NCBI GenBank assembly: GCA_027002755.1 | Contig: JALWZI010000253.1 | Span: 1-11,697 of the forward strand | Source of the DNA: Campylobacteraceae bacterium | GTDB lineage: Bacteria > Campylobacterota > Campylobacteria > Campylobacterales > Sulfurovaceae | Length of the DNA: 11,697 nucleotides | Reading direction: 5' to 3' | Part shown: piece by piece, positions 2,096 through 9,506 of the stretch | How the letters are laid out: each line of letters begins with the position of its first letter | How positions within the stretch are numbered: position 1 is the stretch's first letter | Position numbers and translations under genes: made by a program | Notes under the pieces: model-generated | The model's input: the letters and a program-made list of their open reading frames with translations, nothing else | Databases searched by the model: none | What the model was told of the DNA's origin: nothing

Positions 2096-2800
2096 TTATT
2101 TGATCTCCATCAGTTCGTTGGTGTCAAGCTTGACGGAGGGGCTCATGGTGAGGCTGAGCGCGGCGTTTTTGATGTAGCGGCCCTTGGCGCTGGCGGGCTT
2201 GGCCCGGTTGATCTTTTCGACGAAGGTCTTCAGGTTCTCGACAAGCTGCTCCTCGCTGAAGCTTGCTTTGCCGATCCCGGCGTGCATGTTCCCCTTCTTG
2301 TCGACACGGAAGTTGACCTGGCCCCCTTTGGCGTTCTTCACCGCCTGGGCGACATCCATGGTCACGGTCCCGGTCTTGGGGTTGGGCATCAGGCCCTTGG
2401 GTCCGAGGATCCGGGCGACTTTACCCAGGACACCCATCATGTCGGGCGTGGCGATAACGATATCGAAATCGATCTTGCCGTTCTGGATCTGCTCGATCAG
2501 CTCGTCACTGCCGACCAGATCGGCCCCGGCGGCCTTGGCTTCGTCGACTTTGTCACCTTTGGCGAAAACGGCGACACGGACGGTCTTGCCGGTCCCGTGA
2601 GGCAGGACGACGGATCCGCGGATCATCTGGTCCGCATGGCGGGGATCCACGTTCAGGTTCATGGCCACTTCGACGGTCTCGTCGAATTTGGCGGATTTGA
2701 GGTCCTTGACGGTCTTGACCGCCTCTTCGACGCTGTACTCTTTGTTCCTGTCGATCTTTTCCAGAAGGGTCTGTTTTCTTTTGCTCAGTTTCTTTGACAT
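2096..2800 (-). CDS. rplA: 50S ribosomal protein L1
   Basis: L1 binds 23S rRNA at the mobile L1 stalk next to the E site and in many bacteria represses translation of its own operon. The 234 residues match the family length. Recognisable segments include [55 protein letters not shown] and the C-terminal [12 protein letters not shown]. An in-frame ATG 25 codons upstream exists, but the start at 2800 ([10 protein letters not shown]) is chosen because GGAG lies 6 nt before it and the extra residues would not resemble L1. The stop codon sits inside a 7-bp hairpin (2081-2097). Confidence 0.97.
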
Positions 2801-2855
2801 GTTATTCTCCGCTTTATTTGCTCCCACTTTCTTTTGGATCCAAGTGGTCAAAGGA

Positions 2856-3281
2856 TCAGTCGACGATTTCGACACCCATGCTTCGGCAGGAGCCGGCGAT
2901 GATCTTGGCCGCCTGCTCCCGATCGTTGGTATTGAGGTCCTCGATCTTCAGATCGACGATCTTCAGCAGCTGCTCCTTGGTGATGGTGGCCACCTTGTTG
3001 AGCAGGGGATTGTCGCTCCCCTTTTTGATGCCCGCCTCTTTCATGATCAGATCGCTCGCGGGAGGCTGCTTGGTCTCGAAGGTGAAGCTGCGGTCGGTGT
3101 AGACCGTGATCTCGACAGGGATCTTGAAGCCCATCTTGTCTTTGGTCTTCTCGTTGAAGGCCTTGCAGAACTCCATAATGTTGACACCGCGCTGACCGAG
3201 AGCGGGACCGACCGGAGGAGAGGGGTTGGCCTGTCCTGCAGGAATCATCAGTTTGAATTTTTCAGCAACTTTCTTTGCCAT
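2856..3281 (-). CDS. rplK: 50S ribosomal protein L11
   Basis: L11 binds the GTPase-associated region of 23S rRNA and takes part in factor binding and in RelA-type stringent signalling. It has 141 residues, standard for the family. The N-terminal domain shows the proline-rich [20 protein letters not shown] signature followed by [10 protein letters not shown]; the C-terminal RNA-binding domain includes the [17 protein letters not shown] stretch and ends in [11 protein letters not shown]. The ATG at 3281 has AAGGAA upstream. It follows nusG after 16 nt and precedes rplA after 55 nt. Confidence 0.98.
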
Positions 3282-3297
3282 CGTCTGTTCCTTACGT

Positions 3298-3828
3298 TTA
3301 GATTATTTTTTCCACTTGGGTGTAGAGGATCTCCACGGGGGTGTTCCGTCCGAAGATCGAAACATTGAGCTTGAGCTTTCCGTGATCCAGATCGTACTCC
3401 TCAACCATTCCGGTAAAGTTCGCAAATGGTCCATCAATGATACGTACCATCTCGCCGGGCTCGAAATCGACTTTCGGGCGGGGCGGTTTCTTGCTCTCCA
3501 TCTTCTCCAGGATCAGTTTGATATCCGATTCGTTCAAAGGCGTAGGCGTCTTCTGCTCCCCGATGAAGCGGGAGACCCGGGGAAGATTCTGGATCTTGTG
3601 CCAGAGATCGGTATCCAGGTCGATATGGGCGAAGACATACCCCGAATAGAGGGAGCGTTCGGTGATCTTCTTCTGGCCGTTCTTGACCTCGATCACCTCT
3701 TCCGTGGGAACGACGACCATATCGATCTTGTCCTGAAGACCGTAGTCTTCGGCCATCTGTTCGATCGCCCGCTTGACGGAGCGTTCACTTCCCGCGTAGG
3801 TTTGGATTGCGTACCATTGATGAGCCAT
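3298..3828 (-). CDS. nusG: Transcription antitermination/elongation factor NusG
   Basis: NusG binds RNA polymerase through its N-terminal domain, and through its KOW domain contacts ribosomal protein S10 or Rho, coupling transcription to translation and termination. The 176-residue protein starts [20 protein letters not shown], typical of NGN domains, contains [14 protein letters not shown] and VSRFIGEQ, and carries a KOW motif at about residues 121-146 ([19 protein letters not shown]). A longer frame adds 11 residues upstream, but the ATG at 3828 begins the conserved sequence and has AAGG about 8 nt before it. secE ends 13 nt upstream. Confidence 0.98.
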
Positions 3829-3841
3829 CGTGAAGCCTTGC

Positions 3842-4021
3842 TTATAGGGTTGAAGAGACAACAGCCGACATCAGCATGTCAACCAGTGCCAGGAAAATAG
3901 ATATTACGGTCACGACCATTACTACGGCAACAAAAGCCTGACGGACCTGCACTTTCGTCGGAAAAATGACTTTGTCAAGTTCGACTTTGGCGTCTTTGAT
4001 AAATTTGATAATCTTGTTCAT
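3842..4021 (-). CDS. secE: Preprotein translocase subunit SecE
   Basis: Small essential subunit of the SecYEG protein-conducting channel in the inner membrane. The 59 residues are the short single-span form: an amphipathic N-terminal helix (KIIKFIKDAKVELDKVIFPTK, residues 3-23) containing the conserved VxFPT-type turn, then one transmembrane helix (about 29-55). The ATG at 4021 has an AAGAAGG ribosome binding site just downstream of the CCA end of tRNA-Trp, so the coding region starts only 14 nt after the tRNA. The same frame continues upstream through the tRNA, but that part is not protein coding. Confidence 0.96.
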   Translation of the reverse strand: MNKIIKFIKDAKVELDKVIFPTKVQVRQAFVAVVMVVTVISIFLALVDMLMSAVVSSTL

Positions 4022-4035
4022 ATCTACCTTCTTGA

Positions 4036-4111
4036 TGGCAGGCCAAGAGGGACTCGAACCCCCGACACCTGGTTTTGGAGACCAGTGCTCTACCAACTGA
4101 GCTATTGGCCT
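4036..4111 (-). tRNA. trnW: tRNA-Trp (anticodon CCA)
   Basis: A 76-nt cloverleaf on the minus strand. Acceptor arms AGGCCAA/TTGGCCT pair over 7 bp, the D arm reads AGCTCAGTTGGTAGAGC, the anticodon loop is CTCCAAA (CCA, tryptophan), and the T arm contains GGTTCGAGTCC. The discriminator is G and the CCA tail is encoded (4038-4036). It is embedded between rpmG and secE, as in many bacteria. Confidence 0.97.
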
Positions 4112-4133
4112 AACGAGAAAAGGAGAGAAGCTC

Positions 4134-4286
4134 TCAGAGCTTCATCTCCTTGTGGACCGTATGGGTCTTGCACCACTTGCAGTACTTGCGCAGGGCAAGC
4201 TTCTCCGTGGTGTTCTTTTTGTTTTTTGTGGTGTGATAGTTGCGACGGGTGCACTTTTCACAGCCGAGATGAATTGTTTCTCTCAT
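4134..4286 (-). CDS. rpmG: 50S ribosomal protein L33, zinc-binding form
   Basis: A 50-residue large-subunit protein near the E site. The translation opens [20 protein letters not shown] and ends [10 protein letters not shown]. Two CxxC pairs (residues 9/12 and 36/39) mark the zinc-ribbon (C+) version of L33. The ATG at 4286 has TGGAGC upstream. It lies between tuf (42 nt upstream) and tRNA-Trp (22 nt downstream), the usual place for rpmG in this cluster. Confidence 0.96.
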
Positions 4287-4302
4287 CGTTGCTCCAGTTT
4301 AT

Positions 4303-4316
4303 GCCGGCGAACCGGC
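4303..4316 (-). other. GCCGG/CCGGC hairpin with UUCG loop between tuf and rpmG
   Basis: On the minus strand the 42-nt tuf-rpmG gap contains a perfect 5-bp stem closing a TTCG tetraloop. No T-run follows, so it is not a convincing intrinsic terminator. An RNA stability or processing element is possible; the role is inference. Confidence 0.45.
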
Positions 4317-4328
4317 CGTTGGGTGTGA

Positions 4329-5537
<1,209 letters not shown>

Positions 5538-5570
5538 AGTATTCTCCTAGCTTTGTGATTTGCGGCTGAT

Positions 5571-5576
5571 ATTATA
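5571..5576 (-). promoter_or_regulatory. Candidate -10 box of an internal tuf promoter
   Basis: A perfect TATAAT on the minus strand would place the transcript start near 5564, about 27 nt before the tuf ATG, with the AGGAGA ribosome binding site in between. The -35 region is poor, as is usual for sigma-70 promoters of Campylobacterota. The box lies in a 6-bp palindrome (CTGATA/TATCAG, 5566-5580). Confidence 0.55.
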
Positions 5577-5607
5577 TCAGAATCTGCTTAGACCCCATGC
5601 CCAACGC

Positions 5608-5649
5608 TATGGACAAGACTCCAACCCTGAGGTTGTACTCCTGTCCATA
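5608..5649 (-). repeat. Long interrupted hairpin between tRNA-Thr(GGT) and tuf
   Basis: Arms TATGGACA (5608-5615) and TGTCCATA (5642-5649) pair perfectly over 8 bp, and inside them AACC/GGTT (5623-5626 and 5631-5634) closes a CTGA loop. The intervening parts are unpaired. No T-run follows on the minus strand, so it is not a terminator. A processing site separating tRNAs from tuf mRNA is plausible but inferred. Confidence 0.5.
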
Positions 5650-5672
5650 TTCAGCCGATGTGGTTGATGATC

Positions 5673-5747
5673 TGGAGCCCAGAAGCGGATTTGAACCGCC
5701 GACCTCTTCCTTACCAAGGAAGTGCTCTGCCCCTGAGCTATCTGGGC
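5673..5747 (-). tRNA. trnT: tRNA-Thr (anticodon GGT)
   Basis: A 75-nt cloverleaf on the minus strand with acceptor GCCCAGA/TCTGGGC, anticodon stem CTTCC/GGAAG around loop TTGGTAA (GGT, threonine), T arm with GGTTCAAATCC, discriminator T and encoded CCA. It is the last of four tRNAs before tuf. Confidence 0.97.
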
Positions 5748-5845
5748 GTTGATAAAGTATGTTTGAATAATGACAGTGCGTAAGCTTTAACTGCGAAGAT
5801 ACATCTGAAACCAGTGTAGAACAGTTATTCAGCTCCCAGTATTGT

Positions 5846-5922
5846 TGGAGCGGGAGACGGGACTCGAACCCGCGACCCTCAGCTTGGAAGGCTGACGCTC
5901 TAGCCAACTGAGCTACTCCCGC
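5846..5922 (-). tRNA. trnG: tRNA-Gly (anticodon TCC)
   Basis: A 77-nt cloverleaf on the minus strand with acceptor GCGGGAG/CTCCCGC, anticodon stem TCAGC/GCTGA around loop CTTCCAA (TCC, glycine), T arm GGGTTCGAGTCCC, discriminator T and encoded CCA. It is separated from tRNA-Tyr by 5 nt, so the two must be processed from one precursor. Confidence 0.97.
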
Positions 5923-5927
5923 GTCGA

Positions 5928-6013
<86 letters not shown>

Positions 6014-6053
6014 AAAAATATACCGGTCAAACACTGACACATTCGCTTTGCAA

Positions 6054-6130
6054 TGGAGCTGGTGATGGGACTCGAACCCGCGACCTGCTGATTACAAATC
6101 AGCTGCTCTAGCCAACTGAGCTACACCAGC
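6054..6130 (-). tRNA. trnT: tRNA-Thr (anticodon TGT)
   Basis: A 77-nt cloverleaf on the minus strand with acceptor GCTGGTG/CACCAGC, anticodon stem CTGAT/ATCAG around loop TTTGTAA (TGT, threonine), T arm GGGTTCGAGTCCC, discriminator T and encoded CCA. It is the first gene of the whole minus-strand block; a TATAAT box lies 26 nt upstream. Confidence 0.97.
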
Positions 6131-7109: not shown

Positions 7110-7139
7110 GAATGAATTATGCTGCAAGAAGGAGTTCAT

Positions 7140-7457
7140 ATGTTTGAAATGGGAGCGAAGTTCGAATCGGCATGGGAGAGCGAGAACAAAAAGAGAAAAC
7201 CTGCGCAAAGCTCCGGTGAAATTCTACCGCCGGAGAAACATCACCTCCGGTTCTCCCGGGAAAAGCGTCGCGGCAAAGTTGTCACACTCTGCGGACCCTT
7301 TTCTCTGGATAAAAAAGAGGGCAAAAATCTGCTGGCGGCTTTGAAAAAAGAGCTGGGGACCGGCGGAACGTTCCGCGGCGAGAACCTGGAACTTCAGGGA
7401 GAGTGTGCCGATGCCTTGCGCAAAGCCCTCGGGAAAAGGGGGTTTCGGTTCCGGTAG
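7140..7457 (+). CDS. SUI1/YciH-like translation factor homologue
   Basis: A 105-residue protein whose second half (about 44-105) resembles the SUI1 fold shared by eIF1 and bacterial YciH: GKVVTLCGPF, a helix LLAALKKELGTGGTFRG with the diagnostic GTGGT (73-77), LELQG, and the ending LRKALGKRGFRFR. In E. coli YciH is implicated in stress-linked control of initiation at non-canonical starts. The N-terminal 40 residues are charged and probably flexible. The ATG at 7140 is chosen over an in-frame ATG at 7119 because AAGGAG lies 5 nt upstream of it. It is 30 nt downstream of the small membrane ORF and probably co-transcribed with yaaA. No clear terminator follows. Confidence 0.85.
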   Translation: MFEMGAKFESAWESENKKRKPAQSSGEILPPEKHHLRFSREKRRGKVVTLCGPFSLDKKEGKNLLAALKKELGTGGTFRGENLELQGECADALRKALGKRGFRFR

Positions 7458-7530
7458 CGGGCAGAAATCCTCCGATCATCCCAAATCATGCAGTAGAAAG
7501 TGCACCAGATGTGCCAATACTCGGTCGGCA

Positions 7531-7579
7531 GGGGGGAGAAGTGTCACAACGACACAAACTGCTTTGTGTCGTTCGCTTC
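7531..7579. repeat. Palindromic repeat, copy 1
   Basis: A G-run plus A (7531-7537) precedes a 42-nt stem-loop. Lower stem GAAGTG (7538-7543) pairs with CGCTTC (7574-7579) with one G-U. A 4-nt bulge TCAC (7544-7547) follows on the 5' side, then a perfect 11-bp upper stem (7548-7558 with 7563-7573) closed by CTGC. It shares the G-run, GTCA, and core CAAACTGCTTTG with copy 2, exactly 114 bp downstream. An alternative fold uses TCACAACG (7544-7551) with CGTTGTGA (7599-7606) and CGTTCG/CGAACG (7570-7584). Confidence 0.85.
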
Positions 7580-7644
7580 GAACGCGGAGCGGTCGGAACG
7601 TTGTGAAGCCGCGGAGGCAAAAGCCAAAACGCAGGCGCACCCGG

Positions 7645-7693
7645 AGGGGGAGGAGCGTCAAGCGAAGGCAAACTGCTTTGCCTTCGTCGCTCC
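7645..7693. repeat. Palindromic repeat, copy 2
   Basis: Same architecture as copy 1: G-run plus A (ending 7651), lower stem GGAGCG (7652-7657) with CGCTCC (7688-7693), 4-nt 5' bulge TCAA (7658-7661), 11-bp upper stem (7662-7672 with 7677-7687, the lowest pair G-U) and CTGC loop. Outside the shared core the stem bases differ from copy 1 but remain paired. Confidence 0.85.
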
Positions 7694-7701
7694 GCACGGC
7701 G

Positions 7702-7758
7702 CTGCGTCTATGCCGCAGGCATCGCAGACGCCCGAAAAGGCTTTGGGCGAATCGCCCA
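7702..7758. repeat. Two further hairpins downstream of the paired repeats
   Basis: GCGTCT (7704-7709) and AGACGC (7726-7731) enclose ATGCC/GGCAT (7710-7714, 7718-7722), with CTGCG/CGCAG as an alternative outer stem. About 12 nt later TGGGCG (7744-7749) and CGCCCA (7753-7758) form a 6-bp stem with a 3-nt loop. They lie near the 3' end of the DUF309 gene and could act as transcript-end structures in either direction, though no T-run follows. Confidence 0.55.
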
Positions 7759-7809
7759 TGTCACCGATGATCGGTACAGATGACGTGCTGGCTAATGCAT
7801 CGTTTGGGA

Positions 7810-8133
7810 TCATATCTTCCACCTGAGCCGCAGATGCTCTACCATATCTGTCGCTTTCTTCAGACACGGTTCCCGGCGGATCCTGCGCTCGTAGCCTGCC
7901 ATGGCGACCTGAGCGACCCGGCGGGATTTGGGGCGGTCGCGCCGGAGATGTTCGAAGGCGATGGCGGCGTTGATCAGCCCTTTGACCGGTCCGGCCAGAG
8001 GATCGCGGCTGCGGCGCAGAGGATGCCACGCCTCCTCCAGCACCTCATGAGCCTCGAAATACTCCCCCGCTTCCAGGCGGCGGCAAAAGCTCACGAGCGC
8101 CTGCTCCAATTCTTCATTTCTCCGAAAGTTCAT
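7810..8133 (-). CDS. DUF309 family protein
   Basis: A 107-residue helical protein with the hallmark of the DUF309 family: CRRLEAGEYFEAHEVLEEAW at about 17-36, followed by GPVKGLINAAIAFEHLRRDRP (48-68) and a basic C-terminus. The family's biochemical role is not known to me; the conserved EAHE/LEE acidic-histidine residues suggest a small binding or structural protein. The ATG at 8133 has GGGAG about 7 nt upstream, inside the preceding gene, and the two genes overlap by 20 bp, so they are probably translated together. It is convergent with the SUI1-like gene across the hairpin-rich spacer. Confidence 0.82.
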   Translation of the reverse strand: MNFRRNEELEQALVSFCRRLEAGEYFEAHEVLEEAWHPLRRSRDPLAGPVKGLINAAIAFEHLRRDRPKSRRVAQVAMAGYERRIRREPCLKKATDMVEHLRLRWKI

Positions 8134-8849: not shown

Positions 8850-9506
8850 TCAGAGCCGCTCGATATTTCCGACGACCCGGCCGACGATCTCCACCTGCTC
8901 CGGAGGAAGGACCTCGGGCGTATAGAGCGGATTGTCGGAGATCAGTTCCACCATGCCGTCGGCCCGGCGCCGGATCCGCTTGACAAAGAGGCCGTTGCCG
9001 GTGGCCGCCACGAAGATCCCGTCTTTGGTGGGATCGGTCTGGCGGCGGTCGACGAAGACGATGGAGCCGTCCGGCAGGGTCGGCTCCATAGACTCCCCCT
9101 CCACATGGATCGCCTCGATTTCGCCGGAAGGCAGCGGACCGACGAGATTCTCCATGATGGTCCGATCCACATCGAGATACTCATACCCCTCGTCGAAGAC
9201 CTCCGCCCCGCCCCCGGCGCTGGCCCGGATATCGGCGAAATAGCGGACCCGGAAGAATTTGCCCGTCTCCTCCACCAGCATCTCCGCCGGCTGATCGAAG
9301 AAGAGCCAGTTGATGCTGATCTTTCTGCGGGCACAGAACTCCATGATCTCCCGGTAGGGGATCGACCCCCGCTTCTTCATCGTCGCGAAGGTCGCCTGGG
9401 CGATCCCCAGCTCCGCCGCCACATCCTTGTCGTAGACCTTGCCGCCGATCTTTTTGGAGGAGATGATATCCTTCATCTTCTCGATCACCTCATGGAAGTC
9501 GATCAT
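8850..9506 (-). CDS. LexA/CI-like repressor with S24 self-cleavage domain
   Basis: A 218-residue transcriptional regulator. Residues 1-70 form a CI-type helix-turn-helix domain (DKDVAAELGIAQATFATMKK, then the family's EFCARRKISINWLFF). The C-terminal S24 peptidase domain has the catalytic serine in HVEGESMEP (Ser139) and the lysine in GLFVKRI (Lys176), spaced 37 residues as in LexA, with a likely Ala97-Gly98 cleavage site in the linker. Such proteins cut themselves when RecA filaments form, relieving repression. AAGGAG lies about 6 nt before the ATG at 9506, and a palindrome covers its promoter, suggesting autoregulation. No phage genes are nearby, so it may be a chromosomal stress regulator; targets other than its own promoter are unknown. 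Confidence 0.9.
   Translation of the reverse strand: MIDFHEVIEKMKDIISSKKIGGKVYDKDVAAELGIAQATFATMKKRGSIPYREIMEFCARRKISINWLFFDQPAEMLVEETGKFFRVRYFADIRASAGGGAEVFDEGYEYLDVDRTIMENLVGPLPSGEIEAIHVEGESMEPTLPDGSIVFVDRRQTDPTKDGIFVAATGNGLFVKRIRRRADGMVELISDNPLYTPEVLPPEQVEIVGRVVGNIERL

Follow-up and report, generated by a model that had tools for sequence, protein, structure and literature searches.

Paired hairpins between convergent genes in a Campylobacteraceae genome: probable copies of a REP-like double-hairpin repeat nested in a MITE-like element

The window, the whole 11,697-nucleotide stretch of DNA analysed here, is contig C253 of a 1.57 Mb Campylobacteraceae genome assembled into 300 contigs and 75.6% complete. 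A SUI1/eIF1-like gene and a DUF309 gene on the opposite strand converge on a spacer that holds two 42-nt hairpins, 114 bp apart and each found once in the window (Table 1). Four open frames that overlap these copies have no Pfam match; open frames that cross the repeats could be annotated as short genes. Elsewhere in the window, the minus strand of 4036-6130 carries an EF-Tu gene with tRNA-Thr, Tyr, Gly and Thr genes upstream and a tRNA-Trp gene downstream, and 8850-9506 (minus strand) encodes an S24 peptidase with a phage CI-type repressor helix-turn-helix domain.

Table 1. Features of the convergent spacer and its flanking genes (window coordinates).
Feature	Position	Strand	Basis or remark
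SUI1/eIF1-like flanking gene	7119..7457	+	PF01253, E 4.2e-8; directed toward the element
Left target-site duplication ATCAT	7475..7479		Sequence and 5-bp duplication statistics
MITE-like element (non-autonomous, terminal inverted repeats), holding both hairpin units	7480..7808	+	Aligned with 44 other genus copies
Left terminal inverted repeat CCCAAATCATGCAGTAG...	7480..7503	+	Column counts, 42 copies
Double-hairpin unit 1 (type B second hairpin)	7535..7618	+	R1 match 7535-7583, 60.8 bits (training copy); ends by eye
Hairpin H1 of unit 1 (first of the initial annotation)	7538..7579	+	RNA folding; single occurrence
Double-hairpin unit 2 (type A second hairpin)	7649..7732	+	R1 match 7649-7697, 71.9 bits (training copy); ends by eye
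Hairpin H1 of unit 2 (second of the initial annotation)	7652..7693	+	RNA folding; single occurrence
Right terminal inverted repeat ...CTAATGCATCGTTTGGG	7785..7808	-	Column counts, 42 copies
Right target-site duplication ATCAT	7809..7813		Overlaps the TGA stop of the opposite-strand DUF309 gene
DUF309 flanking gene	7810..8133	-	PF03745, E 1.3e-14; directed toward the element

Folded as RNA, pieces of 52 and 53 nt give both hairpins (H1) a 6-bp lower stem, a 4-nt 5' bulge, an 11-bp upper stem and a CTGC loop, with z-scores of -2.9 and -2.8; 2/200 and 0/200 dinucleotide shuffles fold equally well. Folding and coordinates thus confirm the initial annotation, which had described twin 42-nt hairpins with one fold and compensated arms, and the core and flank that it had reported as common to both copies are as stated. 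Its description of the shape is right for the window copies but does not hold as the family norm. In an alignment of 31 copies the common H1 has a 5-bp lower stem and a 5-nt 5' bulge, GTNAA, facing a single 3' A; in the window copies C replaces this A and forms a sixth lower-stem pair.

How much of this structure is maintained by selection? The loci then available were first scanned with the structure taken into account, which gave 36 CTGC-loop hairpins, and in the 31 aligned copies 99.4% of 495 cells hold standard pairs, a level reached by 0/500 shuffles, with double changes at 13 of 16 pairs and 100 doubly changed cells. Since this set came mostly from the structure-aware scan, the pairing test was redone on structure-blind sets. 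In the 46 distinct 36-mers among the 77 stretches of a pattern search across species genomes (below), 97.8% of the 322 unconstrained stem cells pair, against a mean of 63% and a maximum of 71% when arms are re-dealt. A looser scan of the fetched loci yielded 95 distinct 36-mers, in which 98.6% of the 665 free cells pair; the copies are mutually related, so that these counts are not independent events. Bulge and foot bases are near constant in the 95 36-mers (G 91, T 93, A 88 and A 93, for example), partly by construction, as they were the anchors of the scan (up to 3 mismatches in 18). In the 31-copy alignment the bulge G, the T and one bulge A each reach at least 90%, as do the bases of the loop, which was itself selected. 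H1 structure is conserved through compensatory change, and the proposal in the initial annotation that structure is under selection gains support from the structure-blind sets and the relatives alike.

The layout first described stands for the hairpins and is refined in two respects: H1 is the first half of a two-hairpin unit of ~85-95 nt, and the units lie inside an element with terminal inverted repeats (TIR). Among 125 distinct pieces downstream of H1, the second hairpin is of type A in 50, of type B or grouped with B in 52, and of another kind in 23, under a simple sorting rule that placed at least one odd piece in B. The variable 4-bp stem of type A pairs in 90.6% of cells (45/46 copies parsed; shuffled mean 58.5%, maximum 68.3%), and pairing in type B was judged by eye.

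A covariance search of the genome and its relatives, the check that the initial annotation had called for, found further copies. The model, R1, matches 41/60 relatives at E <= 0.001, with at least 10 copies in the source genome and up to at least 20 in G034, the highest of the 60; its 31 training copies, both window hairpins among them, match by construction. At E <= 1e-6 it matches 25 of 150 genomes drawn from the phylum, in 17 of 39 genera. All R1 counts are lower bounds, as filters were strict and only part of the candidates were scored. Within the genus, counts run from 0 (G007 and the incomplete G012) to 11 (G006 and G008). A pattern in which only the bulge, loop and foot bases were fixed picked out 77 stretches in 84,980 species genomes; the titles of 76 name Campylobacterota, Epsilonproteobacteria or a member group or genus, with Helicobacter sp. 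11S02596-1 supplying 15. The odd one, L168:4386-4421, is titled as a Caldisericaceae MAG contig and may be a binning error. Among viral contigs the pattern matched once, in L231 (IMGVR_UViG_2791355308_000003), where the hairpin lies near one end of the stretch examined; a plasmid collection queried with unit 2 and a phage collection queried with the whole element gave no match. The spread of the unit over the phylum is patchy. A local tandem duplication with chance structure could explain why only the two window sites of the source genome match the strict pattern GTCA-N8-CAAACTGCTTTG at <=2 mismatches, but the R1 matches in relatives, the 77 stretches and the compensatory change refute it, and its probability is negligible.

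The segment that encloses the hairpins has a distribution of its own. Blastn with 7458-7830 matches 43/60 relatives at E <= 1 (weak matches included) and gives 18 matches in the source genome. The matches resolve into two end pieces and a variable middle, and middle-only matches extend to other genera and families. The ends are inverted, CCCAAAT..ATGCA in the window; across copies the element starts with CCCAAA and finishes with TTTGGG. Of 45 genus copies with both ends (the window included, from regions fetched), 28 are short and 17 long. The short ones, mostly ~165 bp, have no hairpin units; where unit 2 would lie, they show a small stem-loop particular to them (by eye). Two units are present in the window and in L042, and one in most of the other long copies.

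Parsing left 42 of these copies, and 24 are flanked by an exact 5-bp duplication matching WTNAW, where 1000 shuffles gave 3.2 on average and 10 at most; the 42 include at least one mis-parsed row (L069) and two pairs with shared flanks (L035/L060 and L058/L073) that are not independent. The three unparsed copies are L070, L041 and L052, and L070 and L052 showed exact 5-bp duplications in another parse. At other lengths exact flank matches number 0 (3 bp), 2 (4 bp), 0 (6 bp) and 0 (7 bp). The segment at 7480-7808 therefore combines terminal inverted repeats with a target-site duplication of constant length, two properties of a MITE. Because the two-unit layout recurs in L042, which comes from a different genome of the genus, the window element probably moved with both units already inside. 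Surveyed by presence alone, a candidate parent, DDE_Tnp_1, is found in 2/13 genus genomes and not in the source genome. The MITE ends have no match in the Y1 loci searched. A second MITE-like element, with ends TTTCACTCGAT, encloses a hairpin unit in L040, L079, L084 and L085 (by eye). Its ends read TTTCACTCGATAGCTCTGGCAGTCGC.../...CGCCATCGAGTGAAA, also by eye, and its flanks recur in L170 and L180.

Outside the MITE-like elements, copies favour gene 3' ends. The 46 hairpin-bearing spacers, counted once each, comprise 19 convergent, 4 divergent, 18 tandem sense and 5 tandem antisense cases. Convergent spacers are enriched (19/46 vs 20/116 other spacers; Fisher p=0.002), divergent ones depleted (4/46 vs 40/116; p=0.0007), and sense orientation prevails in tandem spacers (18 vs 5; p=0.011); the test set structure-blind copies in spacers of >=40 nt against others of >=100 nt from the same loci and defined genes by a simple open-frame rule. 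In 11/83 structure-blind matches the unit starts exactly 3 nt past a same-strand stop codon, several of them in orthologous genes. Parsing FabI loci at the 3' end succeeded in 21/30; the unit provides the stop codon in G010 and G011, and other genomes (G000 and G001, for example) have no unit there. Some copies are vertically inherited, with one gene end occupied in several genomes, and these counts thus overstate independent insertions.

Units also lie within CRISPR repeats or repeat remnants at eight loci, six of them among the 77 stretches: L166, L174 and L229 by shared 10-mers, L136 and L203 by aligned repeat copies, and L171, L213 and L285 by eye, with no shared 10-mer in L213. The shared-10-mer test covered 105 places, 90 of them in loci without an array-like repeat, and its calls at L176, L198 and L224 were rejected, as these are arrays of the units themselves. 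In 5 of the 8 CRISPR loci the left junction is near the ...AAGG run of the repeat, its exact point blurred by the G run. In L285 (G032:C10:163500-165600) a CRISPR array is followed by five units, each after an apparent CRISPR-repeat remnant (by eye; part of the stretch reads N). L203 encodes an RT-Cas1 fusion (2562-4766, minus strand; RVT_1 and Cas_Cas1 by Pfam) beside its unit-containing arrays, and sequence clustering alone places relatives in L213 and L136, the one in L136 being short.

A third kind of site is the tRNA T-arm. At all four T-arm loci seen, L160 (Leu), L206 (Pro), the Asp locus of G039 (L131/L286) and L165, the junction follows ...GAACC. In L160, L206 and G039 the unit is preceded by an exact duplicate of the tRNA 3' end (25 to 39 nt of 40 compared) and followed by the intact tRNA; L165 has the same junction as G039, and its stretch ends before any intact tRNA. 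L160, L165 and L206 are three of the 77 stretches. In all three matched 16S-23S rRNA spacers of G053 (L090, L091) and G083 (L270) a unit lies beside tRNA-Ala, in an apparent degenerate second copy of that tRNA (by eye), and the matched spacer of G088 (L271) lacks the stretch with the unit. Tandem arrays of units, for example L171, L176, L198, L224 and L288, run mainly head-to-tail (uncounted). The sites of the unit are thus of unrelated kinds: gene ends, two MITE-like families, CRISPR arrays, tRNA T-arms, rRNA spacers and tandem arrays. Together with the further copies, these unrelated sites and tandem arrays bear out the suggestion of the initial annotation that the hairpins belong to a REP/BIME-like mobile palindrome.

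Could the hairpin instead be kept for a role in the RNA of 3' UTRs, such as mRNA end protection, RNase III processing or slowed transcription, with its spread secondary? The bias toward convergent and away from divergent spacers, the sense orientation in tandem spacers and the starts at a fixed 3 nt past the stop would all suit such a role. However, presence is patchy even within the genus, and a position inside CRISPR repeats, rRNA spacers or broken tRNA copies is hard to reconcile with an mRNA 3' end. The copies inspected have no U-run after the hairpin (by eye), so that it is not an intrinsic terminator by sequence. An excess of G.T over A.C cells, 13 to 4 in the upper stem, becomes unclear over all stems (29 to 23 with the lower stem added); the same comparison gives no clear support for single-strand use of the unit. 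We regard an RNA role as the primary reason for the family as unlikely.

The junctions bear on how units arrive. Among 102 distinct flanks, target duplication is absent for most unit copies: 15 share >=14 nt with the downstream side (controls, 4/204 comparisons). Several of the 15 are themselves unit arrays or CRISPR repeats, and in only six (L131, L152, L160, L188, L206 and L224) does the shared piece stop no more than 1 nt from the presumed junction. Compared by eye with a known or near-empty counterpart, occupied sites have lost 1 to ~9 target bases to the unit, which is not a clean transposition signature. General insertion just 3' of hairpins was considered and dropped, as stems of >=5 bp occur at 7/114 junctions (6.1%) and in 6.5% of 1482 controls (Fisher p=0.63; Mann-Whitney p=0.08 for stem length); by eye, such a position fits the T-arms, some CRISPR repeats and one MITE site.

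Repeats of this size, location and tandem arrangement recall REPs or REPINs mobilised by a RAYT (Y1) transposase, a link that the initial annotation had raised as speculation, and Y1 genes are indeed present in 36/60 genomes. Their distribution runs against it: 25 genomes have both hairpin and Y1, 16 the hairpin only, 11 Y1 only and 8 neither (Fisher p=1.0, Spearman 0.07). No Y1 match occurs in nine genomes carrying 3 to 11 copies (G000, G003, G004, G005, G006, G025, G041, G044 and G053; G000, G005 and G006 are <90% complete), nor in that of Helicobacter sp. 11S02596-1. The CTGC/GCAG hairpin is found at 0/20 RAYT-like loci, defined by longer Y1 genes, mostly ~256 aa, and searched over up to ~1.9 kb a side, less at contig ends. 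Inverted repeats of another, unrelated sequence, containing GGGTCAGG, flank four of the five RAYT-like genes examined. Mobilisation by a RAYT transposase is therefore very improbable for this family.

Those GGGTCAGG inverted repeats accompany one ~256-aa Y1 gene each in L105, L108, L109 and L118 (G010, G001, G008 and G011). They resemble the GGGGWSAS motif of TIR-associated tyrosine transposases given in the available part of PMC3733652, and this gene looks like such a transposase, unrelated to the window element. Searches for Y1 and one DDE family found no mobilising gene. Among 409 proteins within 2.5 kb of hairpins, the 25 largest clusters contain no mover-like family and consist mostly of orthologous-looking neighbours. 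Reverse transcriptases occur at three of these loci, one of them the RT-Cas1 fusion, and are attributed to the CRISPR arrays there.

Together, these results suggest, with a probability of roughly 0.7, that the window hairpins represent a non-autonomous, REP-like mobile double hairpin of Campylobacterota, present here in two copies nested in a MITE between convergent genes. We infer the mobility of the unit from its distribution, from near-empty sites and from MITE copies with and without it. The unit would move as a folded single strand; recognition would fall on its unpaired, constant segments (the CTGC loop and the GTNAA/A internal loop), and the stems would need only to pair; the mover would be a protein encoded elsewhere, other than a Y1/RAYT transposase. 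Copies at gene 3' ends may persist because the unit brings its own stops (TGA, and TAA in GTTAA) and would do little harm. A bolder version of this mobile double hairpin is a tentative possibility: a phylum-specific, protein-less mobile element whose enzyme reads the fixed internal loop and the CTGC loop, with CRISPR repeats and tRNA T-arms among its recurrent targets. It would also remodel CRISPR arrays, as the five units after the array end in G032 would indicate.

Several known systems share parts of this design. BOX elements of Streptococcus pneumoniae contain inner stem-loop modules in variable number, and Correia elements have inverted ends; both are non-autonomous. The window element resembles both in being non-autonomous, BOX in its modular stem-loops and Correia in its inverted ends, but its inner modules also occur free of the MITE, in other genera and at other kinds of site. 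Fungal mitochondria harbour double-hairpin elements. As far as the material available on mitochondrial elements (fungi, sponges) goes, the likeness is a repeated hairpin unit with no recognised coding capacity; the present family is instead bacterial and phylum-wide, has a conserved internal loop and occurs in CRISPR repeats and tRNA arms. The ends of IS200/IS605 elements and integron attC sites are hairpins with unpaired bases that are recognised as single strands. Here, unlike in IS200/IS605, there is no linked Y1 gene, and the RYYYAAC / GTTRRRY box arrangement of attC is absent by eye.

The closest comparison is with REP/BIME sequences, of the GTAG and CGTC kinds, as presented in the available part of PMC3733652. 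Those too are short repeated hairpins with compensatory stem variants, found at gene 3' ends, in convergent spacers and in clusters; some bring stop codons, and REPs inserted within palindromes are reported there. The unit here differs in having two hairpins, a conserved asymmetric internal loop (GTNAA/A) and a CTGC loop, in its mainly head-to-tail arrays and in its numbers, at most 20 R1 matches per relative among those listed for the 60 relatives (lower bounds). Compared with GTAG REPs, the gene 3'-end location in convergent or tandem spacers is the same, but the hairpins lack an unpaired GTAG tag at the 5' foot (GTAG is mostly present but lies 3' of the stem, its G and T paired) and no RAYT gene flanked by the repeat was found.

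Membership of the CGTC-tagged REP super-family (Di Nocera 2013) deserves separate weighing, as the accessible text of PMC3733652 describes transposase-less CGTC REPs and counts Sulfurovum sp. NBC37-1 among their hosts. The sequence of the 5' bulge is CGTN, and CGTC in some copies; the 4-nt loop and the gene-end preference also agree with that text, and the absence of a Y1 link would be in line with the lack of a dedicated transposase. Set against its description, used here in place of a consensus, the family lacks the CGTC tag, the 8-9 bp stem from AT and the CCA tail. The upper stem is 11 bp and mostly starts with G or A against T, there is an additional lower stem beyond the bulge, a second hairpin follows, and the fourth bulge base is mostly T (57/95, with 22 A, 11 C and 5 G). 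We consider such membership quite improbable.

The initial annotation had not recognised a described family, and neither Rfam nor the literature supplied one. Rfam has no family on the hairpins, either in the window at gathering scores or at 13 loci at E <= 1, where its matches (tRNA, rRNA and sub-threshold antisense or plastid ones) lie off them. No report of this hairpin family was found among the papers listed by literature searches, as far as the sources were available, with the CGTC REPs set apart by text features alone. The available portion of PMC6006769 contains no mention of Epsilonproteobacteria, Sulfurovum, Nitratifractor or Campylobacter, and names Helicobacter solely for H. pylori IS608; a palindrome-count table in the part of PMC12306157 at hand includes three epsilon genomes. 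As far as could be checked, the hairpin family is new and its kind is known.

REP-like repeats are mostly explained through RAYT transposases; this family combines strong structural constraint with a whole-phylum range and, over the genomes tested, is not associated with RAYT genes. Annotation is also affected, through the copies in CRISPR arrays, tRNA arms and rRNA spacers. The spread of transposase-less palindromic repeats becomes testable in carriers such as Helicobacter sp. 11S02596-1 and the complete genome G011. The latter, a single contig of 2,101,285 bases, also encodes seven equal-scoring 143-aa TnpA genes of the IS200 type.
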